Virus record (IMG/VR): IMGVR_UViG_3300044953_000313
Location: 1-28,980 of that record
DNA: 28,980 nucleotides
Source of the DNA: a virus
Strand: one strand, 5' to 3'
The stretch's first letter is position 1. Each line of letters begins with the position of its first letter. Of the stretch, positions 2,100 through 27,448 are shown in pieces. The position numbers and the translations under genes are program-made. The notes below the pieces were generated by a model. That model was not told the DNA's origin. It ran no database searches and saw only the letters and a program-made list of their open reading frames with translations.

Positions 2100-2392
2100 T
2101 GCTGAAGGAAGCCTTTGATTTCTTGGCGCAGAAGGGGCTTCTGAGCCCGGTGATCCTCGCCGCCGCGATGGTGGCGGTGGTCTACTTCCAGTCCGGCGTG
2201 GACACGGAGCAGCGTGACACGCTAGAGGACTTGAAGGCGCAGGACCGGATCATCACGTCCCAGATACAGCAGACAAGTGAGAACCTGAAGATCACGGCTG
2301 CGCTGCTGAACCGGATCGACGAGCAGGGCACGAAGCACGAGTTGGCGGCGCGAGAGAGGGATCTCTCCCGTCGGGAACCGGCCGGCAAGTAG
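2099..2392 (+). CDS. 97-aa membrane/coiled-coil protein, lysis-associated (holin or i-spanin-like)
   Basis: Starting at the ATG that overlaps the lysozyme stop, the product has a short amphipathic N-terminus, one membrane span (about residues 15-30, LSPVILAAAMVAVVYF), then a charged helical tail of about 65 residues (DTEQRDTLEDLKAQDRI...) that ends in basic residues. A single N-terminal span followed by a coiled coil is the layout of inner-membrane spanins (Rz) and of some holins. No embedded second reading frame for an Rz1-type lipoprotein was recognised. Position after an endolysin supports a lysis role; exact class is unresolved. An ATG at 2087 would add four residues. Confidence 0.65.
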   Translation: MLKEAFDFLAQKGLLSPVILAAAMVAVVYFQSGVDTEQRDTLEDLKAQDRIITSQIQQTSENLKITAALLNRIDEQGTKHELAARERDLSRREPAGK

Positions 2393-2451
2393 CGTGCCAC
2401 ACTTCGGCACAACTCTTGCGGTAGGCCCGGTTTAGGAGTATAGGGGGAATC

Positions 2452-2628
2452 GTGAAGCCTTATAGTGGGATGAAGCGCAGCACGCACAAGGAGTGCGCGT
2501 ACGGCATCGCTGGCAAGTCGTTCATGGCGCAGCCGAAGGTCGTTCAGAACCGGAAGCAGGGGCACCTGGAGCGCCCGCCGTCGCAGGAGCTTGCCGTGGG
2601 GCTCAAGGGTCGGGAAATCACCCGTTGA
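2452..2628 (+). CDS. 58-aa basic hypothetical protein
   Basis: A short ORF starting at GTG 2452 with strong purine-rich ribosome-binding sequence just upstream (TTAGGAG and AGGGGG around 2431-2447). The product is Lys/Arg/Gln-rich (VKPYSGMKRSTHKECAYGI at the start) with a single Cys and no membrane segment. Its TGA overlaps a TTG start of the next gene (TTGA at 2625-2628), which supports translation. It opens the head-gene block after a 59-bp gap following the lysis genes. Family not recognised; it may be a minor head protein. Confidence 0.55.
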   Translation: MKPYSGMKRSTHKECAYGIAGKSFMAQPKVVQNRKQGHLERPPSQELAVGLKGREITR

Positions 2629-3161
2629 AGCTCAAGCACCTCCAGCTCGTTGAGGACGACTCCCGCGTCGTCGCAGGCGAGACCCGCGAGACGTGGGAGG
2701 ACGCCATCGCGGCGTACTTCTCCCGACGCAAGAAGTCTCTGGAGGCCGACTACGCCGGCAAGGCCAGCTTCGACCGCTCGGCTGTCCGGCTACAGGCGAA
2801 GGCTCTGCCCGAGATCCTGCGACTCCTGACGCGCGGCGTTATGTCGATCCCCGACAAGCCGACGCTTATCGAGCGACGGGATGACGAGGACTCGACGGAT
2901 CATATCGTCCGGCTTGCGACCCTCCTGACGCCCCCCGGCTGGCAGGAGCACGTCCGTCCGGTGTTGCTGGAGCGTCGCGCCACGGCCATGTCCGAGGCGT
3001 TCGACGAGAAGGACGAGGAAGCGAACGTCGCTCTCATCACCGAGATCGACTATCTGCTGCGTTTCCTGACGACCACCGACTCGCAAGGGTCGGCGGCAAG
3101 GATGCAGCGACGCGGGATGTCGCCCCGCGCAGCCAAGCAGCTCCGCGAGGCGGCTATGTAG
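2625..3161 (+). CDS. 178-aa helical hypothetical protein upstream of scaffold
   Basis: The frame continues upstream, but the TTG at 2625 overlapping the previous stop is the most likely start, and codons before it are antisense-like. The product is charged and helical, with segments such as TWEDAIAAYFSRRKK and a C-terminal basic stretch (MQRRGMSPRAAKQLREAAM). No catalytic motif is visible. Placed directly before scaffold and capsid genes, it is probably a head-assembly protein. The sequence at its stop (TATGTAG at 3155-3161) is part of an element repeated at two other gene starts. Confidence 0.6.
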   Translation: MKLKHLQLVEDDSRVVAGETRETWEDAIAAYFSRRKKSLEADYAGKASFDRSAVRLQAKALPEILRLLTRGVMSIPDKPTLIERRDDEDSTDHIVRLATLLTPPGWQEHVRPVLLERRATAMSEAFDEKDEEANVALITEIDYLLRFLTTTDSQGSAARMQRRGMSPRAAKQLREAAM

Positions 3162-7073: not shown

Positions 7074-9133
7074 TGCCGAGGCGCCCCTCACGTCAGGTCG
7101 CGCTCGGGCCGCTGCTCGGTCAGAACGGCACGCGAGTAGCCGACCGGACGATCAACGGCACGTTCATGCGCGGCGGATACAACGTCGGCCTGCGCGATGG
7201 CGAGTGGTGGGTGCGCAAGGGCCAGAAGCTGCTGGACTCGCGCATCGGCGGCGTGCCGTGGTGGTGGGTGATGGACATCAATGCCGATCTGTCCATCGTT
7301 GCAAATGCCTTCTACGCGCTCGCGTACAATGTGCCGGGGGCGAAGGTGGAGCCGCTTTACACGCCGGACGTGACGGAAAGCGTGTCGTTCACGAACAACA
7401 GCGCGACGGCGACGAGCACCACGATGCGCACGGTGGGCCAGTTGATTCTGGTGCCCACTGACGAGGTGTATCGGGTGACGGGTGTCGCCGGCACCACCGT
7501 GACACTGAACCGCGTATACACAGACACGACGGCGTCGGAGACTTGTCGGTTCATTGACCCGCTGAATCGCGACACGACGGGCACCCACACCGGCATCAAT
7601 ACGGCCACCCCCCGGCTCGGCTCGTGCGTGGTGTTCGAGCAGCTCGTGACCAACTCCAGCGCGGCTGTTCACGCAGCCAGTCCGGCCACGACGGCAGGGC
7701 ACAGCTATTTGGTCATCACGAGCGACCGTGGCGTTCCGGTGGCAGTAGACCTGACGGCGTATCAGAACGGCTCCCCGGTCGATCCCGTGCGGTTGTTCTT
7801 CTACAACACGTCCATCGGCACACCCGCACAGATCGGAGCCGACTATGCGTTCACCAGCCTGAACCCACGCGGCGTTTTTGCCGAGGTGTACAGGGGCAGG
7901 CTGTTCATCTCGTATGCGACGGACCCCAGCGGGCTCTACGGCGACCGCACGATCTGGTACTCACAGAGGGGCGACTTGCTGCGTTGGCACACCGGCATCC
8001 AAGGCCAAACTGCGGCGCCGAACTTCATCACGTTTGAGGGCGAGGGGAACGAGATCGCTGAGATGAAGAATCTCAGCGACGACCTTGTCGTGCATCGCTG
8101 GTACTCGCGCGAGTTGCTGACGGCCACCGGGTCGGCGTCGGGACCATTCTCCCGCCGGACGCACAGCGTGAGGATCGGTATTCACGATCAATTCGCGATG
8201 ACCAGCCGAGTCGTCACGGCGAATGGCGTCCACTACATCTGGACTCGGAACGGTCCCGCCGTGTTCGACGGGTCGAACGTGACCCTCATCGCGCAGCGAG
8301 TGTATCGCGATCTGCTCGCGACCGAGGCGATCGACGAGCAGGGTGGCGTTGTCTGCGCGCTGCACGACGAGCGCAATCGGTATGTGGTCTGGGTGCTGGG
8401 CACGAACAGCTCGACGCGGCATCAGGACGCCCTGCCGGCGAGTTCCAGCGACCACGCCACGGTGCTGATCTACGAGTACGACACCGACGAGGCGTGGTTG
8501 GAGGACCACCCGAAGATCAAGGGGGGCGGAACCTGTACCCAGATCGACGGCGGGAGCAACGTGCCGCAGTTGCTCGTGTCGCGGGGGGACGGCTCCATCC
8601 TCATGATGCACGGGCGAACGACCGCCAAGGACGCCGACTTCACAGACCCGGACAACGGGGCTGCGGTCACGGTCAACGCGCAGGTCGAAACCCCGTGGAT
8701 GGACTTTGGCACCCTCCAGACCAAGCAGCTATTGCAGGTGGAGCTGGTGATGCGCTCGATCAGCTCGTCCAACCACACCTGGGACAAGAACACCGACTTG
8801 TCGTCCGGCAACTACTGGATCAACATGAAGGTGTACGGCGACTTCGATGAGGGCACGGCGCTCGCGACCATCGGGCGTGTGTACGACTCGACCGACGGGC
8901 AGCTTACCCAGCGTGGCGAGAACCGGCAGGCGACGCTGTTCGTCGTGACGTTGACCCCGCGCGTCTCGGGGCGCCAGTTCAAGCTGGTATTCTCCAACGC
9001 ACTGACTTCGGCCGCTTCTGCGGCTGGGTACATTCAGGTACCCTTCCGTATCTCGGACATCATTTGCACCGTCGTTGACCGCGACGGGGACTCCCCGCTA
9101 ACCGAACTCGGCGGGGCAAGCATCTCGGAGTGA
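7073..9133 (+). CDS. Tail hub/nozzle protein, beta-propeller (P22 gp10-like role)
   Basis: A 686-aa protein. Near the N-terminus it has DGEWWVRKGQKLL, and further on repeated blades typical of short-tail nozzle or stabilisation proteins: RGRLFISYATDPSGLYG, IWYSQRGDLLRWHTG, HYIWTRNGPAVFDGSNV, WLEDHPKIKGG. These match the recurring 'xGRxFI..S...P..W.S..GD...W' style of phage beta-propeller tail proteins. The product would attach below the adaptor and form the tail conduit. The C-terminal third (from about residue 520) is a separate beta-sandwich-like domain. The ATG at 7073 overlaps the previous stop; upstream codons in the same frame are shadow sequence. Assignment is by motif pattern and gene order. 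Confidence 0.7.
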   Translation: MPRRPSRQVALGPLLGQNGTRVADRTINGTFMRGGYNVGLRDGEWWVRKGQKLLDSRIGGVPWWWVMDINADLSIVANAFYALAYNVPGAKVEPLYTPDVTESVSFTNNSATATSTTMRTVGQLILVPTDEVYRVTGVAGTTVTLNRVYTDTTASETCRFIDPLNRDTTGTHTGINTATPRLGSCVVFEQLVTNSSAAVHAASPATTAGHSYLVITSDRGVPVAVDLTAYQNGSPVDPVRLFFYNTSIGTPAQIGADYAFTSLNPRGVFAEVYRGRLFISYATDPSGLYGDRTIWYSQRGDLLRWHTGIQGQTAAPNFITFEGEGNEIAEMKNLSDDLVVHRWYSRELLTATGSASGPFSRRTHSVRIGIHDQFAMTSRVVTANGVHYIWTRNGPAVFDGSNVTLIAQRVYRDLLATEAIDEQGGVVCALHDERNRYVVWVLGTNSSTRHQDALPASSSDHATVLIYEYDTDEAWLEDHPKIKGGGTCTQIDGGSNVPQLLVSRGDGSILMMHGRTTAKDADFTDPDNGAAVTVNAQVETPWMDFGTLQTKQLLQVELVMRSISSSNHTWDKNTDLSSGNYWINMKVYGDFDEGTALATIGRVYDSTDGQLTQRGENRQATLFVVTLTPRVSGRQFKLVFSNALTSAASAAGYIQVPFRISDIICTVVDRDGDSPLTELGGASISE

Positions 9134-20292: not shown

Positions 20293-20557
20293 TGTGCGGT
20301 ACCGGGTGCGCGTCGTGAAGGACGCGCAGCGGCACCGCAGGGAGCGCGGCATCGCCACGCCGCACTCCCTGCTCGGCTACATCGACCCGGAGAACGAGGA
20401 CATCGTGCTGGAGCAGGCCGAACCCAAGACGATGAGCGCGACACTATTCCACGAGATGCTGCACGACGCCTTCCCGTTCCTCGACGAGGACGTCATCCGC
20501 GACGCCGAGGACCGACTATTCCCCGCCCTCTGGAAGCACGGGTTCCGGCCGTTCTAG
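20270..20557 (+). CDS. Small HExxH zinc-metallopeptidase-like protein
   Basis: A 95-aa protein. H61-E62-x2-H65 in ATLFHEMLHDAF gives the zincin motif, followed by a Glu/Asp-rich helix (LDEDVIRDAEDRLFPALWKH) likely to supply a third ligand, as in minimal ImmA/IrrE-like phage peptidases. The N-terminus is a basic beta hairpin (RHVRLGDVRYRVRVVKD). ImmA-type proteins often cleave phage repressors; pairing with an RHH regulator immediately upstream is suggestive but not proof. It is the last gene of the rightward operon and its 3' end overlaps that of a leftward gene by 65 bases. Confidence 0.6.
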   Translation: MRHVRLGDVRYRVRVVKDAQRHRRERGIATPHSLLGYIDPENEDIVLEQAEPKTMSATLFHEMLHDAFPFLDEDVIRDAEDRLFPALWKHGFRPF

Positions 20558-20828
20558 TTCGTGTAGATTGTGGCAGTGGACTCGGCGCCCCCTCCAGCGG
20601 CAGGCCGAGCGCGGCGCGCATGGCGCGGTCCATCTCAGCGGAGACGCGGTACCCGCGCAGCCAGAGCCACGCCGAGCGTGCGGAGACGCCTGCGAGGCGC
20701 GCGAGCCTCGGCGTCGGGATCGTCGCGATGCCGCGCGCATCCGCCGCGAGCAGCACCTCGCGCCGAGGAAGCGCGTGCGCGCTGCGCGCCGTTGAGGGTG
20801 GGGTCCAATCAACTTGATCGTTCTTCAT
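20493..20828 (-). CDS. Helix-turn-helix DNA-binding protein (YdaS/Cro-like)
   Basis: Starts at ATG 20828, overlapping the previous stop (ATGA), giving 111 aa; the longer upstream frame has no support. Residues 37-60 form a HTH (IPTPRLARLAGVSARSAWLW then LRGY), followed by a helix (EMDRAMRAALGLPLEG). The last 30 residues are Pro/Arg-rich and read antisense to the end of the metallopeptidase gene. It is the last gene of the early operon and may be a Cro- or anti-repressor-type regulator. Confidence 0.55.
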   Translation of the reverse strand: MKNDQVDWTPPSTARSAHALPRREVLLAADARGIATIPTPRLARLAGVSARSAWLWLRGYRVSAEMDRAMRAALGLPLEGAPSPLPQSTRTRTAGTRASRGRGIVGPRRRG

Positions 20829-21022
20829 TCTTCTACCTCCAGTCTGGCTATCTCCATCTCGATGTAGTGCTTGGCCTTCCGTAGATCCTCGATGCCACCC
20901 TTGTAGCGGTAGCGGGCGAGGTACTTGAGGGCGTTCGCGGCGCACCACGGCAGATCCCACGCGATGATGACGCTCGTCGGCTCAGGGTTGAGCCGCGTGT
21001 AGTGGTCTGGCCCCTCGCTCAT
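20825..21022 (-). CDS. DUF3310-like small protein
   Basis: A 65-aa protein: DHYTRL near the N-terminus, then WCAANALKYLARYRYKGGIE, then DLRKAKHYIEMEI. This is the signature of DUF3310 ('HY...', 'GNAIKYI.R..KKGG.EDL.KA.WYL'), found in many phages, often near nucleotide or DNA metabolism genes; its biochemical role is unknown. Start at ATG 21022 with GGGAG upstream. Its stop overlaps the HTH gene start. Confidence 0.75.
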   Translation of the reverse strand: MSEGPDHYTRLNPEPTSVIIAWDLPWCAANALKYLARYRYKGGIEDLRKAKHYIEMEIARLEVEE

Positions 21023-22758: not shown

Positions 22759-23154
22759 TCAGAACGGAATGTCGTCCGACTCTGCGGGCTCCGCCTCGGC
22801 CTCGACTCCCCCAGCAGTTGCCCTCGGCCCGCCGATGAACTTCACCTCGGAGGCGACGATCTCGGTGACGGACCGCTTGATGCCGTCCTTGTCCTCGTAC
22901 TGCCGGGTGCGGAGCTCGCCCTCGATGTACACGTCGCGCCCTTTGGCGAGGTACTTCGCGCACAGCTCCGCGAGCGCACCCCAAGCGGTGATCTTGTGCC
23001 ACTCAGTCTGCTTCTGGCGCTGGCCGTCCTTGTCCTTCCAGACCGAATCGGTGGCGATCGAGAAGTTCGCCACGGCCTTGCCGGTTCCGGTGTGCCGAAG
23101 CTCCGGGTCGTGTCCGAGCCGCCCCATCAGGATTGCCTTGTTCACCGATGCCAT
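22759..23154 (-). CDS. ssb: Single-stranded DNA-binding protein
   Basis: A 131-aa OB-fold SSB. ASVNKAILMGRLGHDPELRH opens the fold; KAVANFSIATD, the TEWHKITAWGALAELCAKYL segment and KGRDVYIEGELRTRQYEDKD follow in normal order. The C-terminus is the acidic tip ESDDIPF that recruits partner proteins. It would coat single-stranded DNA during replication and recombination. ATG 23154 (TGATG overlap) is preferred to the adjacent GTG 23157. The linker is short. Confidence 0.96.
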   Translation of the reverse strand: MASVNKAILMGRLGHDPELRHTGTGKAVANFSIATDSVWKDKDGQRQKQTEWHKITAWGALAELCAKYLAKGRDVYIEGELRTRQYEDKDGIKRSVTEIVASEVKFIGGPRATAGGVEAEAEPAESDDIPF

Positions 23155-23738
23155 CACTCATTCTCCTCGTAGTAGCGCCGCAGTGCGGCGCCGAAGTTCC
23201 CTAGGTACGCGGAATCATCATATAGCCTCGTCGTCCACGCTCGGTCCTTCCCCACGTACAGTGCAAGCAGTATCTCGGGGGTCGCGTCGCGCTGCGACCA
23301 TGCGTGCGCATAGGCCGCGAGCTGCGCCCCATGCTCGGCGGGGCGCGGGGCGCCGCTCTTTATGTCGATGATCGCCAGTTCGGCGCGCTTACCGAGCAGC
23401 GCCACCCGGTCGATGGTGCCGGCGTAGAGAAGTCCATACAGACTGCCCAGAACCCGAACTTCGGTAGCGACGTACTGCGGCCGGTGCTCCTCTCGCCACG
23501 CGCGGTAGGCGGTGAGGTGGGGCATGACGAGCGGATCGACGCTCGACTCATCTAGGTCGCCCACGTCGTCGTACTCGGCAGCGAGATGTAGCGCGGTGCC
23601 GCGCTGCGCCGTCCATGCCGGGATGCGCGACAGGTCGCGCCCCCAGCTCAGGATCTGCGTGACGCTGGGGATCTTTCGATCCCCCAGCGTGTAGGTGTGG
23701 CTCTCCGCGTCGAAGGAGAGTGCGAGCTGGCTAGTCAT
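23154..23738 (-). CDS. PD-(D/E)XK (RecB/Cas4-like) exonuclease
   Basis: A 194-aa nuclease. An N-terminal DAESHTYTLGDRKIPSVTQI is typical of phage RecB-type exonucleases. Then H51 (GTALHLAAE), E93 (VATEVRV), D110 (AGTIDRV), D125-x-K127 (IIDIKSG) and Q139-x3-Y143 (QLAAY) give the RecB motif set. It should resect double-stranded DNA to make 3' overhangs for the annealing protein encoded in the same operon. ATG start overlaps the previous gene by eight bases. Confidence 0.85.
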   Translation of the reverse strand: MTSQLALSFDAESHTYTLGDRKIPSVTQILSWGRDLSRIPAWTAQRGTALHLAAEYDDVGDLDESSVDPLVMPHLTAYRAWREEHRPQYVATEVRVLGSLYGLLYAGTIDRVALLGKRAELAIIDIKSGAPRPAEHGAQLAAYAHAWSQRDATPEILLALYVGKDRAWTTRLYDDSAYLGNFGAALRRYYEENE

Positions 23739-24204
23739 TGCTCATTGACTCGGACGTCACTGGATCTACCGACAACTCGGCGTCGCAGTTGCAGGGCTCA
23801 TCCCCGTAGATACGGCACATCGGGTCGTGTGCCACGATGATACAAAGCACCCGGTCTTTAGGAATCCAGCCACCCTTAATGAGTTGGCCTATCGCGCTGA
23901 TGTACCTACCCCTAGCCCGCTGCTCGTGCTTGCTCATGGTCTTGAACTTGGTCTTGCTCACCTCACACTCTCCCTCACGCGCGGCGATCAGGCCGCTGAC
24001 GACGAATTCCCGCTCCGGCGGGGCTTCATTGTCGAGGAAGTACTCGACCGTGCACGTCGGGTCGTTGAGCCGCTTTCGCAGCTCCTCGCGCACCGGGTCG
24101 GGCGCTGGCTTATGCGCCTCGGCCTTGTGCTCGTGGACTCGCTTGATCGGACGCTTGCGCTCGAATGGCGCAACCTTGCTGGTGCTCGTGTCGTCCGCCT
24201 TCAT
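23731..24204 (-). CDS. 157-aa hypothetical protein with internal repeat
   Basis: ATG 24204 overlaps the preceding stop (ATGA). The N-terminus is Lys/Arg/His-rich (FERKRPIKRVHEHKAEAHKP). A later helical domain (SKHEQRARGRYISAIGQLIK) precedes a Cys cluster (C...CRIYGDEPCNCDAEL) that may bind metal. Residues CEVSKTKFK share a 28-bp DNA repeat with the start of the 45-aa gene upstream. Family not recognised. Confidence 0.55.
   Translation of the reverse strand: MKADDTSTSKVAPFERKRPIKRVHEHKAEAHKPAPDPVREELRKRLNDPTCTVEYFLDNEAPPEREFVVSGLIAAREGECEVSKTKFKTMSKHEQRARGRYISAIGQLIKGGWIPKDRVLCIIVAHDPMCRIYGDEPCNCDAELSVDPVTSESMSND
23941..23968. repeat. 28-bp direct repeat, copy 1
   Basis: One mismatch relative to 24318-24345. 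Read on the minus strand it encodes CEVSKTKFK inside the 157-aa gene, whereas the other copy contains the leader and GTG start of the 45-aa gene. Confidence 0.85.
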
Positions 24205-24338
24205 GCCGCCACCTTCCCGCCCCGCTCGTGCGCGAGCGCATCGCTCCAGTCCTTGCCGTGCATCGGGGCCGTCGAGTTGACGCTCGCTCCTGCGTCCGCG
24301 AGGTCCGATGCGAGTCGCTTGAACTTGGGCTTGCTCAC
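24201..24338 (-). CDS. 45-aa hypothetical protein
   Basis: GTG 24338 starts one base after the stop of the annealing-protein gene, with GAGGTGTGAG as leader. Product SKPKFKRLASDLADAGASVN continues to a His/Lys-rich end. The stop overlaps the next ATG (ATGA). Too short for family assignment. Confidence 0.45.
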   Translation of the reverse strand: MSKPKFKRLASDLADAGASVNSTAPMHGKDWSDALAHERGGKVAA

Positions 24339-24345
24339 CTCACAC
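24318..24345. repeat. 28-bp direct repeat, copy 2
   Basis: Spans the stop of the annealing-protein gene and the first codons of the 45-aa gene on the minus strand. Nearly identical to 23941-23968. Confidence 0.85.
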
Positions 24346-25113
24346 CTCCAGCGGGCTCGGGTCCGAGAGGCGGTCGCGGATCGCGCCGAACGCGGACACG
24401 GTGATGTCCTTCGACGACGCGAACCCACGCCGAGCGAGCCAACGCTTCACGGCGTCGCGGTCGTGGTTGTTGTCGCGGCGCAGCTTCTCCAGGTAACGCC
24501 GGTCGTTCTCTGAGATGGTCACGTCCGGCACCGCCACGGGCTCGGCGGCAGCCTCGACGACCACAGGCTGCTGTTCGCTCAGGCGCCTGGGCATCATCAC
24601 GGTTGGCTCGGATACCTCGGATGTCTCGGGTCGTGCGCCCGCAACCGTGTCCAGCTCGGACTCGTCCAACATCCCGAGGCCGCACACCGCCAACACGGCG
24701 CGCCGCTTCGCCTTCGTGGACGCTTTCATCAGGGCGTTGCACAGGCTCTCGCCCGCCAAGCCCTTCACCGAGACGGCGCCGATCTCGTCGGTCTGCCGCC
24801 CGTCCTGCGCGATGGCGCGCACGGTGACGACGCGGATCCCCTCCTCGGTCTGCTGGTTCAGGATCTCGCAGCGGATGCCGTGCTTCGCCGCCAACTGATC
24901 GGTGCAAGACTTGAGGGCGTACAGGACCAGCTTGCCGTTGAGGCGCAGGAACTGGAACGGCTGGGCTCGGAAATCTAAGCCCGCCACGTCGCAGCGGGCC
25001 TTGTAGTATGCAAGCTTTTGCTGGTCGGACAGCTTCGAGCAGTCGCCATCGGTGACCAGTGACAGGATCGTGCGGTCGTCTATGTCCGTGGTGGTTGCAA
25101 CCTGCGTGGTCAT
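24340..25113 (-). CDS. Putative single-strand annealing/recombination protein
   Basis: A 257-aa protein with the conserved block of a widespread phage family: LSDQQKLAYYKARCDVAGLD, PFQFLRLNGKLVLYALKSCT, then DGRQTDEIGAVSVKGLAGES and NALMKASTKAKRRAVLAVCG with GLGMLDE. I recall this pattern in phage proteins encoded next to exonucleases and SSB and considered recombination/annealing proteins; the exact family name is not certain. The C-terminal 50 residues form a separate helical domain. With the exonuclease, SSB and resolvase it completes a phage recombination set. Confidence 0.7.
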   Translation of the reverse strand: MTTQVATTTDIDDRTILSLVTDGDCSKLSDQQKLAYYKARCDVAGLDFRAQPFQFLRLNGKLVLYALKSCTDQLAAKHGIRCEILNQQTEEGIRVVTVRAIAQDGRQTDEIGAVSVKGLAGESLCNALMKASTKAKRRAVLAVCGLGMLDESELDTVAGARPETSEVSEPTVMMPRRLSEQQPVVVEAAAEPVAVPDVTISENDRRYLEKLRRDNNHDRDAVKRWLARRGFASSKDITVSAFGAIRDRLSDPSPLEV

Positions 25114-25292
25114 GACCGGTCCTCCATTGCCTCGGCGACCATGTCGGGAATTCCCTTCATCACCGTCGCCGCGTTAGTGAGGTCATCGACGGCGGCGTCG
25201 AGGCCGTCATTTTCGAGCTTGAACAAGGCCGCGCTCAGGAGATCGCGCGCCGTTCGCGCGTAGATCGGGATTAAACCCTTGACCTCGGTCAT
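25110..25292 (-). CDS. 60-aa helical hypothetical protein
   Basis: ATG 25292 overlaps the previous stop and its own stop overlaps the next ATG (both ATGA). The product is helical (YARTARDLLSAALFKLENDG; DDLTNAATVMKGIPDMVAEA) and acidic towards the end. No family recognised. The longer upstream frame is shadow sequence. Confidence 0.55.
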   Translation of the reverse strand: MTEVKGLIPIYARTARDLLSAALFKLENDGLDAAVDDLTNAATVMKGIPDMVAEAMEDRS

Positions 25293-25612
25293 CGGTAGTC
25301 CTCCTCGTCGCAGCGGCAATCGACGTCCGCCAGATTGCCGCAGTCGCGGCAGTAGTCGGCGGGTCCGGTCGCGGCCTCGTGCATCGCGAGCCACGCCGGG
25401 CCGAGGGCGTGGACGATCTGGCAGGCCGTCGCGCGGCTGTGCTCGGCGGCAACGGTGTTGCCCCGCTCGACATCGGAGATGAAGTGCCGCAGCGCGGCGA
25501 TGGCACCGTTGGCGATGTCGATGCAGTCCTGCTGCTCGGGACAGAGAACCGCCGGGAGCGTCTTGTCCGCGTGGGGCGGGACGATCCAGACCGAGGGGAC
25601 CGGGGCGCTCAC
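25289..25612 (-). CDS. 107-aa protein with C-terminal zinc-binding motif
   Basis: GTG 25612 overlaps the previous stop (GTGA). An N-terminal Pro/Val segment leads to a helical core (DIANGAIAALRHFISDVERG), then four Cys as C88-x2-C91-x7-C99-x-C101 (YCRDCGNLADVDCRCDEED), likely a zinc site. Such proteins are common in phage early operons; function unknown. Confidence 0.6.
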   Translation of the reverse strand: MSAPVPSVWIVPPHADKTLPAVLCPEQQDCIDIANGAIAALRHFISDVERGNTVAAEHSRATACQIVHALGPAWLAMHEAATGPADYCRDCGNLADVDCRCDEEDYR

Positions 25613-25854
25613 GACTCCACCCCCAGATGGTTGTGGAAGGCGCCCTCGATCGCGCGGTGCGCGGCCATGTGGACCTCGCGCGCTTCGCGCTCGTTCCCGG
25701 TGAGGCAGGCGATGGCGTCCGCGAGGAACATCGCCGCGCAGCTCAGGTTCGCTGCGGCTCGGGGGGCGTCGGACAGGACCAGCGCGTGCATCGCGGCGGT
25801 CGTCATCTCGTTGGTTCGCCGGATGGCCCCTGCCAACTGCTCGATATTTTCCAT
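25609..25854 (-). CDS. 81-aa hypothetical protein, first gene of early operon
   Basis: Two starts are possible. ATG 25854 has AGGGAGAG upstream at good spacing and leaves a leader after the putative promoter; ATG 25887 would add 11 residues (MSAPMAQGESE) but lies too near the predicted transcription start. The product is helical (ENIEQLAGAIRRTNEMTTAA; AANLSCAAMFLADAIACLTG). No family recognised. It is immediately downstream of the operator region. Confidence 0.55.
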   Translation of the reverse strand: MENIEQLAGAIRRTNEMTTAAMHALVLSDAPRAAANLSCAAMFLADAIACLTGNEREAREVHMAAHRAIEGAFHNHLGVES

Positions 25855-25900
25855 CTCACTCTCTCCCTGCGCCATTGGCGCGCTCATCTTGTCTGTTCTC

Positions 25901-25930
25901 TTGACTAGATGAGGGAGGCAATCTCGTCAA
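25901..25930 (-). promoter_or_regulatory. Putative leftward early promoter
   Basis: On the minus strand TTGACG (25930-25925) and TAGTCA (25907-25902) are 17 bases apart, a sigma70-like layout with a good -35 and a weak -10. It would drive the recombination operon. The -35 lies in operator O2 and the -10 overlaps the lone half-site, so repressor binding would block it. Confidence 0.45.
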
Positions 25931-25947
25931 GGGCTTTGACGAGATTG
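25919..25947. promoter_or_regulatory. Operator O2: 12-bp palindrome with 5-bp spacer
   Basis: CAATCTCGTCAA (25919-25930) and TTGACGAGATTG (25936-25947) are perfect inverted repeats separated by GGGCT. The half-site TTGACGAGAT recurs in O3 (26241-26265), and a variant TTGACTAGAT stands alone at 25901-25910. Probable binding site of the RHH protein encoded next to it. Confidence 0.7.
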
Positions 25948-25951
25948 AGCG

Positions 25952-25988
25952 AAAAAAAACGCCGCTCCCGAAGGAACGGCGCTTTTTA
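25952..25988. terminator. Bidirectional intrinsic terminator
   Basis: A hairpin GCCGCTCC-CGAA-GGAACGGC (one internal mismatch) is flanked by eight A at 25952-25959 and five T at 25983-25987, so either strand yields a U-tract. It most likely ends the leftward RHH transcript and insulates the early operon. Confidence 0.8.
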
Positions 25989-26025
25989 CAGGGGGATCGC
26001 TGCGGCTAGCGGTGGGGGTGGGGTG

Positions 26026-26232
26026 TCAGGACGCCCTGCGAAGCGTTCCCGGCTTGAGGCGTCCGGCCTTCTCCAGACCGTCGCGGAGCACGTCGCGGAT
26101 GATCCGTCCGATGGGCCGGTCCTGCTCGTCGGCCATCGCTTGCAGCGCGTCGTCGATCTCAGGCGGCAGACGGACGTATCGGTTGGGGCGCAGCGCGCTC
26201 GGTCCTTCTTGGGGCTTGCCGGGCATCTTCAT
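26026..26232 (-). CDS. Ribbon-helix-helix repressor (Arc/CopG-like)
   Basis: A 68-aa protein: a basic, Pro-rich N-terminal arm (KMPGKPQEGPSALRP) then strand NRYVRLPPEI, helix DDALQAMADEQ and helix GRIIRDVLRDGLEKAG, the RHH fold. The dimer would place its strand pair in the major groove. The gene is bracketed by two palindromes sharing TTGACGAGAT half-sites (25919-25947 and 26241-26265), making it the probable repressor of the early operon and of itself. ATG 26232 abuts the SD (GGGAGGTATG), so the second ATG at 26226, with an eight-base gap, may be the real start. Confidence 0.8.
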   Translation of the reverse strand: MKMPGKPQEGPSALRPNRYVRLPPEIDDALQAMADEQDRPIGRIIRDVLRDGLEKAGRLKPGTLRRAS

Positions 26233-26239
26233 ACCTCCC

Positions 26240-26270
26240 TATTTAGTCAAGCCCCTTGACGAGATCAAGA
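26240..26270 (-). promoter_or_regulatory. Putative RHH gene promoter
   Basis: On the minus strand TTGATC, 17 bases, then TAAATA, followed closely by AGGGAGGT and the start codon. Operator O3 fills the promoter, so autoregulation is expected. The -10 is weak. Confidence 0.35.
26241..26265. promoter_or_regulatory. Operator O3: inverted repeat upstream of the RHH gene
   Basis: ATTTAGTCAA (26241-26250), spacer GCCCC, TTGACGAGAT (26256-26265). Same half-site length and same 5-bp spacing as O2. It lies just upstream of the RHH start and within the divergent region shared with the integrase. Confidence 0.7.
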
Positions 26271-26349
26271 GGCTTCGCGTATACGGGCCCCGTGAGGCGG
26301 GCAGCGGCGCGGGCAATCGGTAAGCGGCACTGAACCGCAGTTATTGAGA

Positions 26350-26428: not shown

Positions 26429-27448
26429 GTGAAGCAGTATGTGCTCCCGCTGGATGAGCCAGCCACCGACAAGGGGGTTGAACTGAGCGGTTTGCCGAGG
26501 CCCATCACGCTCGCTGTGTTCGCGAGTCAATTTCTCTCGTTGTACGCCGGCCCACCGTGGCACCCGGCAAAGAACGTCCGGCACGCTCGCAACGTGCTCA
26601 ACGCCTACATCCTGCCGGAGCTGGGTGACCTCCAACTTGACGCCATCGAGCCGCGCCACCTGCGCGCCGTGCAGCGAAAGATGCTCGCTCGGGGGCTTTC
26701 CGTGAACACCGTGAAGGGCGCGATCCAGTCCGTTTTCGGCTCGGTCTGGAAGGCGGCCAAAGCCGACGGTTTGGTGTCCGGCTCGCCGCAGTCCGAGCTG
26801 ACGTGGCCGAGGAGCACACCCTCCCCTGATCCGTTCTCGGCCGACGAGCGCGACCAGATCGTTGTGTGGTTCCAGCGCCGCCAGCCGCAGTACCTCGCGC
26901 TTGCGGGTTCCGTGTTCCTCGCCGGGATGCGTCCGTCGGAGGCGTGCGGGCTCCGCTGGGGCGACATCGACCTCGACACGGGCGAAGTGACCATCGCGCG
27001 GCCGATAGCCAGCCGCGAGCAGACCAAGGGCAAGACCAGCAAGAGCCTGCGGCAGATCCGCGTGAGCGACCGCCTGCGCGGGCTGTACCGGATGGCGAAG
27101 CCGTCTTGGGCCGAGGGCAGCGGGCTCGTCAGCTTGAACCGCTACAGGCGCGAGGTGGATTCCAGCCAGTTCGGCCGGATGAACTTCCATCGCTGCTGCG
27201 CGGAGCTCGGGCTGCGGTATCGTGGTTTTTACCACGGCCGGCATACGTTCATCAGCCTGAGCCTTCAGGATGGCGCGAACCCGGCAGAGGTGTCCGCGTT
27301 CTGCGCCGTCTCGCTCGGCACGATGCAGCGGCACTACTGGCAGTGGATGGGCAGCATCGGGGACCCGGTGTCCGAGGCTACGAGGCGCGCGAACGCCCGC
27401 CTGGACCGCGACAAGCGTGGTGGTGACTCCCACAGGGCGAAAGCGTAG
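26429..27448 (+). CDS. int: Tyrosine recombinase/phage integrase
   Basis: About 339 aa from GTG 26429, which has GGGG six bases upstream; TTG 26411 would add six residues. An N-terminal SAM-like core-binding domain (about 30-120, containing NVLNAYILPELGDLQL and SVNTVKGAIQSVFGSVWKAA) precedes the catalytic domain: Arg168 in GMRPSEACGLRWGDID, Lys205 region (GKTSKSLRQI), box II YHGRHTFIS with Arg271, and nucleophile Tyr303 in RHYWQWM. The first His of HxxR is replaced by Tyr, as seen in some integrases, and the LGH motif is SLGT, so the fifth residue differs. It would integrate and excise the phage genome. Its presence marks the phage as temperate. Confidence 0.88.
   Translation: MKQYVLPLDEPATDKGVELSGLPRPITLAVFASQFLSLYAGPPWHPAKNVRHARNVLNAYILPELGDLQLDAIEPRHLRAVQRKMLARGLSVNTVKGAIQSVFGSVWKAAKADGLVSGSPQSELTWPRSTPSPDPFSADERDQIVVWFQRRQPQYLALAGSVFLAGMRPSEACGLRWGDIDLDTGEVTIARPIASREQTKGKTSKSLRQIRVSDRLRGLYRMAKPSWAEGSGLVSLNRYRREVDSSQFGRMNFHRCCAELGLRYRGFYHGRHTFISLSLQDGANPAEVSAFCAVSLGTMQRHYWQWMGSIGDPVSEATRRANARLDRDKRGGDSHRAKA

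Follow-up and report, generated by a model that had tools for sequence, protein, structure and literature searches.

Can a small Arc/CopG-like protein of the RHH family stand in for a CI-type repressor in a bacterial virus? The question arises from a 28,980-bp IMG/VR virus record (hereafter the window, meaning this whole stretch of DNA), in which a 68-aa gene next to an integrase is flanked by palindromes with a common half-site. Our analysis suggests that this RHH module is probably a dormancy switch that works without a CI-type repressor of the usual sort, a reading that we favor because six related records keep the same layout while each has its own site sequence. The sites and the gene between them are as follows (window coordinates).

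25886-25910, no strand: operator O1, ATCTTGTCTG-TTCTC-TTGACTAGAT, over the -10 and start of the predicted early promoter
25921-25945, no strand: operator O2, ATCTCGTCAA-GGGCT-TTGACGAGAT, over the -35 of the predicted early promoter
26026..26232, minus strand: predicted RHH (Arc/CopG-like) repressor gene, 68 aa, assigned by Pfam RHH_1, PHROG, a structure model, and orthologues beside an integrase
26241-26265, no strand: operator O3, ATTTAGTCAA-GCCCC-TTGACGAGAT, over P_RHH and the -35 of the putative integrase promoter

O1, O2, and O3 are 25-bp palindromes with an identical 5-bp spacer length. The original prediction had described two 25-bp inverted repeats with a common half-site and a 5-bp spacer flanking the 68-aa gene, and O2 and O3 are present as described; the "lone half-site" that it placed at 25901, however, is the right arm of O1, which has a 5-bp spacer too, so that there are three palindromes rather than two plus a half-site. 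O2 is a perfect 25-bp palindrome whose arms reach 12 bp when extended. The outer bases of O1 also pair (TCATCT.GTC/GAC.AGATGA), and O1 shows no mismatch to the pattern common to the three sites. Apart from O3 itself, the contig's best match to this site is O2 (21/25, inverted). A search of the rest of the genome for half-site pairs had also been proposed; with the pattern ATCTNGTC-N9-GACNAGAT, derived from the three sites themselves, only O1, O2, and O3 were matched in the contig at ≤1 mismatch (the reversed-pattern control gave 0), and they were still the only matches at ≤3 mismatches of 16.

Perfect palindromes with 10-bp arms and a 5-bp spacer arise by chance at a rate of 0.07 per dinucleotide shuffle of the contig. 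A loose criterion (three palindromes within 400 bp, each with ≥7/10 pairs and with a common half-site) was satisfied in 3/200 shuffles, which makes the loosest reading, taken by itself, only moderately improbable. Chance palindromes were rejected on these shuffle rates, on the restriction of the pattern to the three sites, and on the finding that the two exact matches to the 18-base core palindrome among 2.9 million viral contigs both fall within unrelated coding genes. One other perfect palindrome with 10-bp arms and a 5-bp spacer, at window positions 8055-8079, lies within a large ORF, is unlike the operators in sequence, and is probably due to chance.

The assignment of the 68-aa product to the RHH family was borne out by a score of 24.7 bits against Pfam RHH_1 (cutoff, 20.5). 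The protein also matched PHROG Arc-like repressor families (E values of 2e-4 and 5e-4) and, weakly, a RelB-like family. Its AlphaFold model (pLDDT 78.5) has helices at residues 24-37 and 41-55, with no strand assigned in the monomer to the strand region 18-23, which pairs only in the dimer; the top Foldseek matches of the model were Arc chains in the PDB (prob 1.0; lowest E value 0.05, none ≤0.001). With a profile score above the cutoff and a modeled two-helix Arc-like fold, the window protein is a predicted member of the RHH family. Among its orthologues, those of records L037 and G002 score above the RHH_1 cutoff and those of G009 and G001 score below it. The probable true start of the gene is the second ATG (26226), which has GGGAGGT six bases upstream. 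The window layout was seen neither for a Rhizobium phage Arc (39.5%, E value 0.6) nor for Bordetella BPP-1 integrase regions.

The promoters, terminator, and neighboring genes complete the locus.

23154..25612, minus strand: continued part of the early operon, four ORFs downstream of its first gene
23154-23738, minus strand: PD-(D/E)XK exonuclease, early operon member
23731-24204, minus strand: early ORF, early operon member
24340-25113, minus strand: conserved early ORF of unknown function, early operon member
25289-25612, minus strand: small early ORF, early operon member
25609..25854, minus strand: leftward early operon, first gene, probably starting at ATG 25854 after AGGGAGAGA, homologue in G012
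25902..25930, minus strand: predicted early promoter P_early, TTGACG (25930-25925)-17 bp-TAGTCA (25907-25902), read from sequence, weak -10
25953..25987, minus strand: intrinsic terminator ending the RHH gene just before O2/P_early, fold of -23.3 kcal/mol, z of -5.0, then T8
26240..26268, minus strand: predicted RHH promoter P_RHH, TTGATC (26268-26263)-17 bp-TAAATA (26245-26240)
26256..26285, plus strand: putative integrase promoter, TTGACG (26256-26261)-18 bp-TATACG (26280-26285), read from sequence
26429..27448, plus strand: tyrosine integrase, divergent from the RHH gene, Pfam Phage_integrase 38.1 bits, PHROG integrase E value 2e-35

Along the minus strand, the order is thus O3/P_RHH, the RHH gene, the terminator, O2 and O1 over P_early, and the early operon. 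The proposal that O2 and the site at 25901 lie over the -35 and -10 of the early promoter fits this reading of the sequence, in which O1 and O2 cover the hexamers of predicted P_early (start expected near 25895). So does the placement of O3, which covers predicted P_RHH and, on the integrase side, the -35 of the putative integrase promoter; the latter begins within O3, and its -35 faces that of P_RHH. The further claim that the half-site starts with the -35 held for the early and putative integrase promoters (TTGAC) and failed for P_RHH, where the half-site is on the other strand, within the -35/-10 spacer. No promoter passed the filter of a standard promoter scan of the window, and the hexamers of P_early and P_RHH are weak against the E. 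coli consensus; the early-promoter equivalent of G009 is cleaner (TTGACC-17-TACTAT), with the operator on its -35. The hexamer geometry of P_RHH and its distance to the gene are identical in 6/6 records. A second palindrome overlaps O3 at window positions 26248-26274 (AAGCCcCTTGA-CGAGA-TCAAGaGGCTT) and is made by the facing -35 boxes; its TTG-N7-CAA part recurs at P_RHH in 6/6 records. The first early gene gave no family match in profile searches, and no antirepressor (ant) gene was matched among the window proteins searched, the neighbors of the RHH gene being the integrase and the exonuclease-bearing early operon.

As a query against viral contigs, the window RHH protein found no relatives; these were retrieved via the neighboring early gene, the integrase, and the capsid. 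When RHH proteins of the L091 and L037 types served as queries against viral contigs, only records already in the set came back. The module of early operon, RHH gene, and integrase is present in the window and in G001, G002, G009, L037, and L091, and a terminator-like hairpin with a T run follows the RHH gene in five of these six (window, G001, G002, L037, and L091). Identity to the window RHH protein is 45% in G002, 37 to 41% in G009, 39% in L037, and 32 to 35% in G001, and all the genes lie beside an integrase of the same kind.

In each of the six records, the site upstream of the RHH gene recurs, mostly inverted, before the early operon. Operators vary in sequence between phages (or types) but are matched within each between P_RHH and P_early. 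The window half-site, TTGACGAGAT, occurs only in the P_RHH and P_early regions of the window and in none of the other five records; the half-sites of G002 (TTGACAGGAT), G009 (TTGAC[AC][CG]AAT), and L037 (TTGACA[GC]CGT; longer site form, CCCGTTTC[TC]CTTGACA[GC]CGT) are likewise confined to their own P_RHH and P_early regions and absent from the others, and the operators of G001 and L091 have the form CTTG-N7-CAAG. When the six P_RHH regions were compared with the six P_early regions, no permutation of the 720 other than the identity attained the own-pair score sum observed, in a set whose records are not fully independent because G001 and L091 are related. The half-site TTGAC-NNN-R-T is common to four phages, and the G001/L091 type differs; in the strand through which Arc contacts DNA, the RHH proteins of this type carry VQF and the other four carry VR(L), a difference that may be linked to operator type, the cases being few. 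The full dyad with a 5-bp spacer is found in the window phage only; the relatives keep one half-site with a different flank.

The records are metagenomic contigs, and several have features of their own. In G001 (L033 3032-3153), two tandem ~59-bp copies lie upstream of the RHH gene at 63-bp spacing, and since each carries one operator, the P_RHH operator is duplicated. In G009 (L034 about 2304-2633, plus strand), the RHH gene and the early promoter are separated by an inserted small lipoprotein-like ORF, possibly expressed in the lysogen. The L091 record, a contig of 4.7 kb, was binned with an Actinomycetota MAG; its integrase is absent from 31 other genomes of that MAG's genus.

L091 and L037 share ~93% DNA identity on both flanks and ~50% over L091 positions 2199-2579 (roughly 380 bp), a block that contains the early-promoter operator, the terminator, the RHH gene, and the RHH promoter and encodes RHH as its sole protein. 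Their RHH proteins are 37% identical, versus 92% for the integrases and 93% for the first early gene; the L091 RHH is 77% identical to that of G001, and the L091 operators are of the G001 form. In lambdoid heteroimmunity, as between lambda and 434, a repressor gene and its cognate operators are exchanged as one cassette between otherwise similar phages. The L091/L037 block resembles such an exchange, an operator-plus-RHH specificity cassette having moved between related phages; as in lambda/434, the predicted repressor sites are found at both the repressor's own promoter and the early promoter. Unlike lambda/434, the window has an RHH rather than an HTH repressor and no divergent cro, and a terminator separates its RHH gene from the early operon that follows in tandem. 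Because the operators and the RHH gene fit within ~380 bp, their joint exchange is expected from linkage alone; the informative part of the exchange is the match of the two operator regions flanking the RHH gene.

The same comparison bears on what binds the sites. If they were bound by a different protein, a host factor or another phage protein, with the RHH gene merely lying between them, the factor would need to recognize two unrelated site sets, since the exchanged block encodes RHH only and the sequence on both sides of it is ~93% identical; no result here favors this idea, and we regard it as exceedingly improbable. Scarcely more credible is that the integrase or an excisionase uses the palindromes as arm-type or accessory sites and that they mark attP. 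O3 does lie between the RHH gene and the integrase, but two of the three sites are at the early promoter, 0.5 kb from int and beyond another gene. Moreover, the integrases of L037, L091, and G001 are 92 to 95% identical while the L037 sites bear no relation to those of L091 and G001; therefore, the palindromes do not track integrase identity, and integrase arm sites were rejected.

A putative RHH repressor of the early operon raises the question of whether another regulator acts beside it. A profile search found no HTH_3/S24 CI-type protein in the window, G001, G002 (40 kb), or G012, in agreement with the proposal of an Arc/CopG-like protein instead of a CI-type one; the window protein itself is RHH, without the HTH_3 or S24 peptidase domain of the lambda CI family. 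Among the longer relatives, G012 has the capsid most similar to that of the window (86% identical) and the same early genes, but its contig lacks an RHH gene, an integrase, and palindromes of this kind. At the RHH/integrase place of G012 (L035 12838-13140), there are a divergent promoter pair with the inverted repeat GAGTcTTGACAC-12-GTGTCAAtACTC and a 79-aa Cys-rich ORF without a family match. Window positions 20493-20831 (minus strand) encode a small helix-turn-helix-like protein that matches YdaS weakly, below threshold, and is possibly a further regulator.

Since relatives with longer contigs measure 40 to 44 kb, the window contig is probably incomplete, and another regulator may be missing from it; together with weak sub-threshold HTH-like matches in G009 and G016, this leaves room for a second regulator. 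The RHH protein could then be a local autoregulator, either an orphan antitoxin or a minor early-gene modulator like P22 Arc, with lysogeny maintained by a CI-like protein encoded in the portion of the genome that the contig lacks, and the best known phage RHH repressors, Arc and Mnt, indeed act in a secondary immunity circuit (PMC2629481, PMC7549136). We consider this unlikely: RHH has no toxin partner, since the terminator directly follows its gene; no HTH_3/S24 protein was found even in the 40 kb of G002; the RHH gene is paired with the integrase, and both are missing from G012; and it is typically in primary immunity regions that a cassette is exchanged along with its cognate operators. 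A type II toxin-antitoxin module was rejected, with no adjacent toxin gene, a terminator after RHH, and the next gene lying beyond the early promoter.

CopG, RelB, and ParD, RHH autoregulators of plasmids and toxin-antitoxin operons, bind repeats at their own promoters. The window protein is akin to them in its predicted binding to repeats at its own promoter and in its weak RelB-like match; in contrast to theirs, its operon lacks a toxin or replication gene, and a second operator set lies on the phage early operon. In P22 immI, Arc is a repressor of both its own and the antirepressor's synthesis, and Mnt acts in the lysogen (PMC7549136, PMC2629481). Both are small phage-encoded RHH repressors, and Arc is the closest solved fold to the window protein. 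The P22 pair, however, controls antirepressor genes in a secondary immunity region, c2 being the primary repressor, whereas the window RHH gene adjoins an integrase, its candidate sites include those at the early operon, and a CI-like gene was not found. Among Pseudomonas filamentous Pf prophages, 12/182 have an Arc-family gene in place of repressor C (PMC7549136), which suggests that an RHH gene may take the repressor's place in a temperate phage, although these are another type of virus, with no operators or mechanism described in that paper. An Arc-type domain is also predicted in YosL of SPbeta, which is suspected to be part of lysis-lysogeny control (PMC10516654).

The six-record layout, the matched phage-specific operators, the cassette exchange, and the joint absence of RHH and integrase from G012 support the original prediction of an Arc/CopG-like early-gene switch. 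As expected of the immunity repressor of a temperate phage, the candidate operators lie, judged by sequence, on its own promoter and on the early lytic promoter. From these features we infer RHH binding, the arrangement of dimers, repression, and the maintenance of lysogeny, and hence the "lysis-lysogeny" role. We are fairly confident that the RHH protein is an autorepressor that also represses the early operon and is the phage's repressor; the protein is most likely its immunity repressor. The RHH protein would bind O1, O2, and O3, probably as dimers paired on the two arms. On O1 and O2 it would block the leftward early (recombination/replication) operon, and on O3 it would limit its own synthesis and probably also the facing integrase promoter, while transcription of RHH would end at the terminator, short of the early operon. 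Such repression would hold the prophage of a lysogen silent and give superinfection immunity specific to the operator type.

We found no description of an RHH protein as the sole phage immunity repressor in the open-access literature that we searched, most subscription journals lying outside it. Phage RHH repressors of described role, such as P22 Arc and Mnt, act in side circuits, and the RHH protein of these viruses appears to fill the place of the primary repressor. The six records also make up a natural set of protein/operator pairs for reading specificity, a natural cassette exchange included. On balance, we lean toward the view that they represent environmental temperate phages of one family, in which an RHH protein of ~65 aa would be the sole master repressor and exchangeable cassettes with cognate operators may define immunity groups.
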